Assembly: GCF_000021725.1 (NCBI RefSeq)
Contig: NC_012115.1
Location: 1-64,000 of the forward strand
Length of the DNA: 64,000 bases
Direction of reading: 5' to 3'
Source of the DNA: Nautilia profundicola AmH
Lineage (GTDB): Bacteria; Campylobacterota; Campylobacteria; Campylobacterales; Nautiliaceae
The notes below the pieces were generated by a model that was not told the origin of the DNA, did not search any database, and saw only the letters and a list, made by a program, of their open reading frames with translations. Below are positions 42,270 to 42,910 of this stretch, piece after piece (position 1 is the stretch's first letter; every line of letters starts with the position of its first letter). The translations under genes and the position numbers were made by a program.

Positions 42270-42910
42270 ATATCGCTTCCTATAACTTTAAATTTTGACG
42301 GAATTTTATCATAAATTTTAACTCCACCGATAACAGCAACGGGATGATTAGAAAATTTTATTAGATCTATAACTTTTTCTCCTATTATATTATCGGTATT
42401 TTTGGTATCTGTAGGACGGTATGCCCCAAGACCTATATAACTTAAAGGATATGTGTTGGCTTCGAGTATTTCTTCTTTGTTGTGGGTTGAGAGACCGACT
42501 ATAAATGGACAATGGACAATGGACAATGGAGAATTGTTTATTTTGGTTTTTTTGTTAATTTTCCATTTTCCATTTTCCATTTTCCATTCTAATAATTCAC
42601 CTGTTCTTAATTTTTGTATTACATCGTATTTAGGAAGATTAAACTTTTGGGATAACGATTCAAGGTCTTCCTGTCCAATGTGTATTCCGTCGCAGAAAGG
42701 CAGAAGCTCAACAGTGTCGTTGATAATAAGCGGCTTTTTCCAGTGTTTTTTGATCTCCAGCAGACGCTCTTTTTTTTCTTCTAAAGAGGAGTTTTTGTCT
42801 CTGTACTGGAGTATTTTGGCTTTAAGACCTTTTGCTGTTTTGCAGAAGTCTTTTATAGAAATATCGTATTTTTTTAAAGTGTCCCAGTCAAGAAGAGCGT
42901 ATATTGCCAC
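42215..42910 (-). CDS. thiE: Thiamine-phosphate synthase (TMP-TENI family) with repeat-derived insert
   Basis: 231-residue TIM barrel that couples HMP-PP and HET-P. Typical motifs are AKILQYRDKN (diphosphate contacts), LIINDTVEL, CDGIHIGQEDL, GLSTHNKEE and YIGLGAYRPTDTK. The middle segment, about residues 108-136, is encoded by the heptamer quasi-palindrome at 42504-42588. It is absent from ThiE as I know it, which would otherwise be about 200 residues. GTG start at 42910 with AAAAGG upstream. ThiD2 at 59.0 kb could supply the substrate. Confidence 0.85.
   Translation of the reverse strand: MAIYALLDWDTLKKYDISIKDFCKTAKGLKAKILQYRDKNSSLEEKKERLLEIKKHWKKPLIINDTVELLPFCDGIHIGQEDLESLSQKFNLPKYDVIQKLRTGELLEWKMENGKWKINKKTKINNSPLSIVHCPFIVGLSTHNKEEILEANTYPLSYIGLGAYRPTDTKNTDNIIGEKVIDLIKFSNHPVAVIGGVKIYDKIPSKFKVIGSDICRLTSSRLRKKKIFRQK
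42504..42588. repeat. Heptamer quasi-palindrome inside thiE
   Basis: Left arm on the plus strand: AATGGAC three times and AATGGAG once (42504-42531). Right arm: TTCCATT four times (42561-42588). The arms are inverted complements except for one mismatch per heptamer and are separated by 29 bases. The whole is an open part of the thiE frame. Confidence 0.85.

Follow-up and report, generated by a model that had tools for sequence, protein, structure and literature searches.

A translated heptanucleotide array in thiE of Nautilia profundicola, probably one copy of a repeat family dispersed in Nautiliaceae

The thiE gene of Nautilia profundicola carries two facing sets of 7-base units in the middle of its reading frame. 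The question is what this segment is and how it came to stand inside a conserved enzyme. The stretch of DNA analysed (the window) comprises bases 1–64000 of a single 1,676,444-base contig. A sequence-only reading of it had described four AATGGAC/G units and four facing inverted units within thiE and had taken them for a palindromic element. In our analysis, the segment is best read as one copy of a dispersed Nautiliaceae heptanucleotide-repeat family that sits in frame within a surface loop of a functional enzyme (probability roughly 0.7).

The units were confirmed at exactly the position described (42504–42588). On the forward strand, three AATGGAC units and one AATGGAG were found at 42504–42531, and four ATTTTCC units ending in ATT at 42558–42588. 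In mRNA order, this gives four AATGGAA units, a 27-base spacer and four TCCATTG units; the second arm pairs with the first with one mismatch per heptamer. The features of the window are listed in Table 1.

Table 1. Position of thiE, of its repeat segment and of the other heptamer arrays in the window.
Feature	Coordinates	Strand	Remarks
thiE (thiamine-phosphate synthase)	42215–42910	minus	231 aa, intact; open frame, 231 codons
thiE segment inserted relative to empty-site relatives	42506–42595	minus	~30 residues; boundaries approximate
thiE arm 1 (mRNA order)	42558–42588	minus	AATGGAAAATGGAAAATGGAAAATGGAAAAT; translation WKMENGKWKI; residues 109–118
thiE spacer separating the arms	42531–42557	minus	translation approximately NKKTKINN
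thiE arm 2, inverted (mRNA order)	42504–42530	minus	TCCATTGTCCATTGTCCATTGTCCATT; translation SPLSIVHCPF
AAGTGAA-type array, coaE N-terminus (frame 28874–29461)	29427–29456	minus	AATGGAT units there in G016
AAGTGAA-type array in QueH-like gene (frame 30265–31449)	31039–31070	plus	AATGGAA at the site in G016
AAGTGAA/AAGTTAA array in rnhB (52187–52765)	52656–52690	minus	loop absent from T. maritima RNase HII
ATGGAAA-type array, pyrE start	55783–55807	minus	ATG of the array may serve as start codon
ATGGAAA-type array, N-terminus of bioC-like methyltransferase gene (57639–58325)	57660–57687	plus	

The host gene had been called otherwise normal, and this was borne out: the frame is intact, and the product matched Pfam TMP-TENI (PF02581) with 2.8e-20. 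The best Foldseek matches of its AlphaFold model in the PDB were thiamin phosphate synthases. Comparison of the ThiE core with two congeners (G019: dN 0.07, dS 0.84; G018: dN 0.11, dS 0.64) shows that the core is under purifying selection. The insert lies after the helix ending in LRTGE and before the barrel strand IVGLSTHN. The HIGQEDL–GLSTHN segment exceeds that of the two empty-site relatives by 90 nt (30 residues); the earlier estimate of ~28 added residues was about right. The model has low confidence at the insert and shows a weak beta-hairpin there (E109–112/E115–118).

Among 18 relatives, the insert was shared, degraded or absent, depending on the relative. At least five unit types were found at this site in the family (AATGGAN, AATTGAG, CACTCAA, CAAGTTA and AGTGAAA), and two lineages were empty. 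Most Nautiliaceae have sequence at the site, which rules out an insertion private to one species. The proposal of a lineage-specific insertion holds in that the segment is in frame and restricted to a lineage, but not to this species: related ThiE proteins share the residues inside Nautiliaceae and not outside. An assembly error was excluded, since G019, an independent relative, has nearly identical arms.

Folding of the RNA agreed with the palindrome read from the letters. The arm pair gave −30 kcal/mol (z = −4.7), and z was −5.3 in G019. A regulatory RNA structure acting on translation, stability or termination would fit these two values. We regard it as hardly credible, given that z was near zero in G002, G008, G010, G012 and G017, all of which keep translated sequence at the site, and that Rfam gave no match to the hairpin above the gathering score. 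A conserved thiE RNA hairpin was ruled out by its loss in most relatives retaining the translated site.

An inverted partner within 150 bp was found for 9 of 116 arrays. The remaining 107 had none, which rules out a discrete palindrome as the general form. Because the hairpin is lost in many relatives and so few arrays have a partner, the palindrome is not the defining feature, and the description of the thiE segment as a discrete palindromic element was not upheld. A mobile palindrome inserted into thiE in the manner of a Rickettsia palindromic element (RPE) would explain the inverted arms in thiE, hypF and a few other places, as well as the in-frame fusion to a conserved gene. This is very unlikely and, as a general description, largely refuted: in addition to the single-arm majority, the arms vary in unit and number, and nothing outside the heptamers is constant. 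The thiE segment is bordered by neither of the end tags defined in PMC3733652 (CGTC for RPEs, GTAG for REPs). The likeness to RPEs that had been pointed out therefore extends to in-frame insertion in conserved genes, but not to the mostly single-arm, tagless build of the arrays. RPEs (PMC10969869, PMC3733652) are likewise short repeats inserted and translated in frame in unrelated conserved genes. Here, comparison of thiE, pseG and rnhB with empty relatives showed insertions in frame with a predicted translation. However, RPEs form discrete palindromic families of ~150 bp that bear a terminal tag and contain a conserved peptide ORF, whereas the unit families of the Nautiliaceae arrays vary by species at one site. 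The thiE element works partly like an RPE, but it is not one.

The 7-base periodicity, named earlier as the distinguishing mark, does set the segment apart, and it was found throughout the sampled genome. In 464 kb (the window plus a spaced 400 kb, L175–L194), 21 exact period-7 arrays were counted against 0.3 expected under an order-3 Markov model, a ~70-fold excess. Periods 14 and 21, which are multiples of 7, were likewise raised. Periods 16 and 18 were mildly in excess in the same sample (6 each, 0.2–0.4 expected). In the window, the intergenic region of thiE and accD (42941–43005) holds a 16-bp tandem repeat (TAAGTTGTGAAGTGGA, 3.6 copies), possibly a related 8-base family.

The ATGGAAA arrays at pyrE and the bioC-like gene, cited earlier as relatives of the thiE segment, are real and related, and both are N-terminal. 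Arrays of the AATGGAN type were found at about ten further places besides thiE, mostly in conserved genes. The hosts are recB-like, hypF (twice), aroA, a helicase gene, hemW-like, pilin-like, pseG and the start of birA; apart from thiE, aroA and rnhB, gene names rest on recognition of the sequence. The unit families are few, and arrays of AATGGAN, AATTGAN and AAGTGAN are dispersed at many places. Of 21 Nautiliaceae genomes, 16 had AATGGAN arrays, with zero or one in the reversed control. The arrays are nearly confined to the family: in a phylum draw of 298 Campylobacterota, they were present in six of seven Nautiliaceae and in two of 291 others (both of one genus). The preferred seventh base differed by species: A in 22 of 32 in N. 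profundicola and in 22 of 23 in G011, and G in 32 of 45 in G014. As the arrays were located by pattern, all counts are of arrays found and not a full census.

Most distinct arrays (92 of 116) lie inside ORFs of at least 150 aa, and 24 are intergenic. Twenty-five of the 92 are N-terminal, and the start codon can come from the array (pyrE, pyrF, hemW). Compact bacterial genomes are mostly coding. On this assumption, the share within ORFs reflects survival in genes rather than enrichment; the 24 intergenic arrays exceed the expectation for a mostly coding genome, and most intragenic arrivals may thus have been lost.

When arrays were grouped by flanking protein into 57 independent sites, the purine-rich strand was sense only at 53, antisense only at three and mixed at one (p = 4e-13); the mixed site is thiE, owing to its second arm. 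Since 7 is coprime to 3, the codons cycle, and whichever of its three frames is used, an AATGGAN array yields a single heptapeptide, WKMENGK. Neither strand of AATGGAA, AATGGAG or AATGGAC contains a stop, so the sense bias needs a separate reason. This is likely the hydrophilic hairpin peptide as opposed to the hydrophobic reverse peptide, FHFPFSI. AATTGAG, read forward, has an in-phase TGA. Intragenic AATTGAG arrays were found only in the stop-free reverse direction (LNSQFSI), with forward copies at N-termini, as predicted.

The same loops hold different unit families in different species. In rnhB, the loop after GPLVVAGC carries AAGTGAA in N. profundicola, AATGGAA in G019, AATTGAG/AATGGAG in G018 and CAAGTTC in G014; the first three are congeners with three unit types. 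Eight species had no clear array at this loop, and the T. maritima RNase HII of known structure is without the segment. The pseG arrays belong to two families and amount to a net gain of 21 nt in N. profundicola; the site is empty in other species, including the congener G018. In aroA, AATGGAN units were found in several species and AAGTGAA-type units in G016. In the window, coaE and the QueH-like gene have switched unit family relative to G016. Such differences speak for exchange between arrays or for repeated arrival at a few tolerant sites. The pattern of unit exchange would also result if arrays had inserted independently and repeatedly at permissive loops, and some single sites (aroA) could derive from point mutations in an ENGKC hairpin that was already there and not from insertion.

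Birth in place is a possible, if rather unlikely, source of the arrays. DNA-polymerase slippage would act on chance seeds (AATGGAAA-like Asn-Gly turn codons), and selection for tolerated peptides would produce look-alikes. Heptamer repeats are over-represented in bacteria, an unexplained excess for which slippage has been proposed (PMC4692102). In relatives whose aroA lacks an array, near-heptamer sequence already encodes an ENGKC/EDGKC hairpin. In aroA of G017 (L216/L217), the frame is broken inside the heptamer array, by either slippage or sequencing error. However, under slippage many of the 1170 possible heptamer classes would be expected to grow into arrays, whereas few families dominate in both genic and intergenic places. 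Moreover, the loops at which pseG and rnhB are lengthened have no such seed in their empty versions. The broken G017 frame, together with the fact that a one-unit change causes a frameshift, would also suit a contingency locus, where slippage in unit number switches a gene on and off. We consider this highly improbable because the targets are biosynthetic or housekeeping genes (thiE, aroA, rnhB, coaE), the arrays have only three to four units, and congeners that share the recB-like and hemW-like sites have identical unit numbers there.

In the AroA model (mean pLDDT 92), the CIMENGKWKV encoded by the array forms a hairpin of two strands (205–210 and 213–218; pLDDT about 94) that turns at N211–G212. 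The array peptide is thus modelled as a beta-hairpin turning at Asn-Gly, confidently in AroA and weakly in ThiE. The peptide trpzip2 (SWTWENGKWTWK, PMC2705519) has the same ENGKW core and Asn-Gly turn, and the array peptide can read WTMENGKWTM; trpzip2 is a designed peptide, and the resemblance is one of hairpin-forming sequence, not homology. A PDB search for a solved structure of an array peptide gave insignificant matches only. Hairpin folding of the peptide WKMENGKWKMEN would favour the argument of structural tolerance.

Under the reading of the thiE segment as one copy of a dispersed family, the scattered arrays, the open frames of the intragenic ones and their recurrence at identical enzyme loops across species could be explained as follows. 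Arrays would land widely, and selection would remove those that break frame or fold. The surviving arrays would exchange or replace units by ectopic recombination or template switching, keeping the 7-base register. Because WKMENGK is hydrophilic and fits an Asn-Gly beta-hairpin, loops and hairpin tips would tolerate it. The mRNA hairpin of thiE would be incidental, as would the gene's inverted second arm.

A candidate for moving the arrays is the RAYT-type transposase (Y1_Tnp, PF01797), whose gene was found in 18 of 21 genomes, usually as a single copy. In N. profundicola, a REP palindrome, AGTGTCTGGCACT (L220:2443–2453), precedes the single RAYT-like gene of the genome (L220:2508–3254) by ~55 bp, and the same palindrome stands just upstream of the gene in the three genomes of the genus. 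The REP pattern AGTGNCWGNCACT has 38 perfect palindromic copies genome-wide and few in most other genera. Four intergenic arrays are 2–3 bp from REPs, where permutation predicted 0.19; three of the four have a REP on either side. One of these three, an AATTGAG array of about 52 perfect units (364 bp; 725813–726176 of the genome, L236:1314–1677), lies between two REPs that form an inverted pair, TTAGTGTCAGGCA ... TGCCAGACACTAA.

It is nevertheless unlikely that the transposase moves the arrays, whether these are the insides of REP pairs or targets of its own. Only four of 34 sampled arrays had a REP within 40 bp, all of them intergenic; the other 30, including every intragenic one, had none. 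The array-rich genomes G001, G011, G013, G014 and G016 have only 0–4 palindromic REPs. The gene is present without AATGGAN arrays in G004, G006, G012 and G015, and its presence as a sufficient cause was ruled out by such array-free genomes. In most genomes, no heptamer array is near the transposase gene, and no AATGGAN array flanked it within about 1 kb. The association offers a lead but does not explain the spread of the arrays. With REPIN/RAYT systems (PMC3116915, PMC3733652), the genome shares a RAYT-type gene, dispersed palindromic REPs and a few arrays between REPs, but the arrays are not REPs, are tagless and have an abundance independent of REP number. A bolder and, in our view, unlikely extension is a selfish, protein-compatible repeat system. 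Here, a dedicated copying process would write and rewrite arrays at permissive loops of essential enzymes, possibly via RAYT or an unknown polymerase.

The Nautiliaceae arrays share features with each known system and fall under the definition only of a heptanucleotide repeat. The GGGAATC repeats of Xanthomonas and GGGGAYT repeats of Nostoc (PMC4692102) are also tandem 7-nt units, usually about four, dispersed, imperfect and species-variable. Those repeats are rich in G, form quadruplexes and, within ORFs, are under-represented on the coding strand, whereas the Nautiliaceae arrays are mostly in ORFs with the purine strand sense. The TAACTGA repeats of Beggiatoaceae, Cyanobacteria and Bacteroidetes (PMC4679880) are heptamers at gene starts, a few of them translated in the stop-free direction, and their mechanism is unknown. 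They are mostly intergenic, and intragenic ones are mostly at the protein periphery; the arrays described here lie within core enzyme domains and recur at identical loops across species. The mainly intergenic or coding-strand-avoiding habit of the Xanthomonas, Nostoc and Beggiatoaceae repeats was not found here; it characterises those examples and does not define heptanucleotide repeats as such. Borg tandem repeats (PMC9879509) resemble the arrays in that they lie in ORFs, are kept in frame by selection and encode amino-acid repeats. In ORFs, Borg units have lengths that are multiples of three; the Nautiliaceae unit of 7 stays in frame only because total length is held, and every frame of the array reads alike.

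As the arrays are tied to a few enzyme loops that are empty or different in near relatives, their birth, replacement and loss can be traced. They also provide a rule for the entry of non-triplet repeats into proteins: if the unit length is coprime to three, every frame encodes the same peptide. Going by the structure models, the arrays may be one way in which core enzymes naturally acquire beta-hairpin inserts. If arrays were indeed written and rewritten by a dedicated process, sister species with different array families at one residue position would represent a natural diversification by loop swapping.
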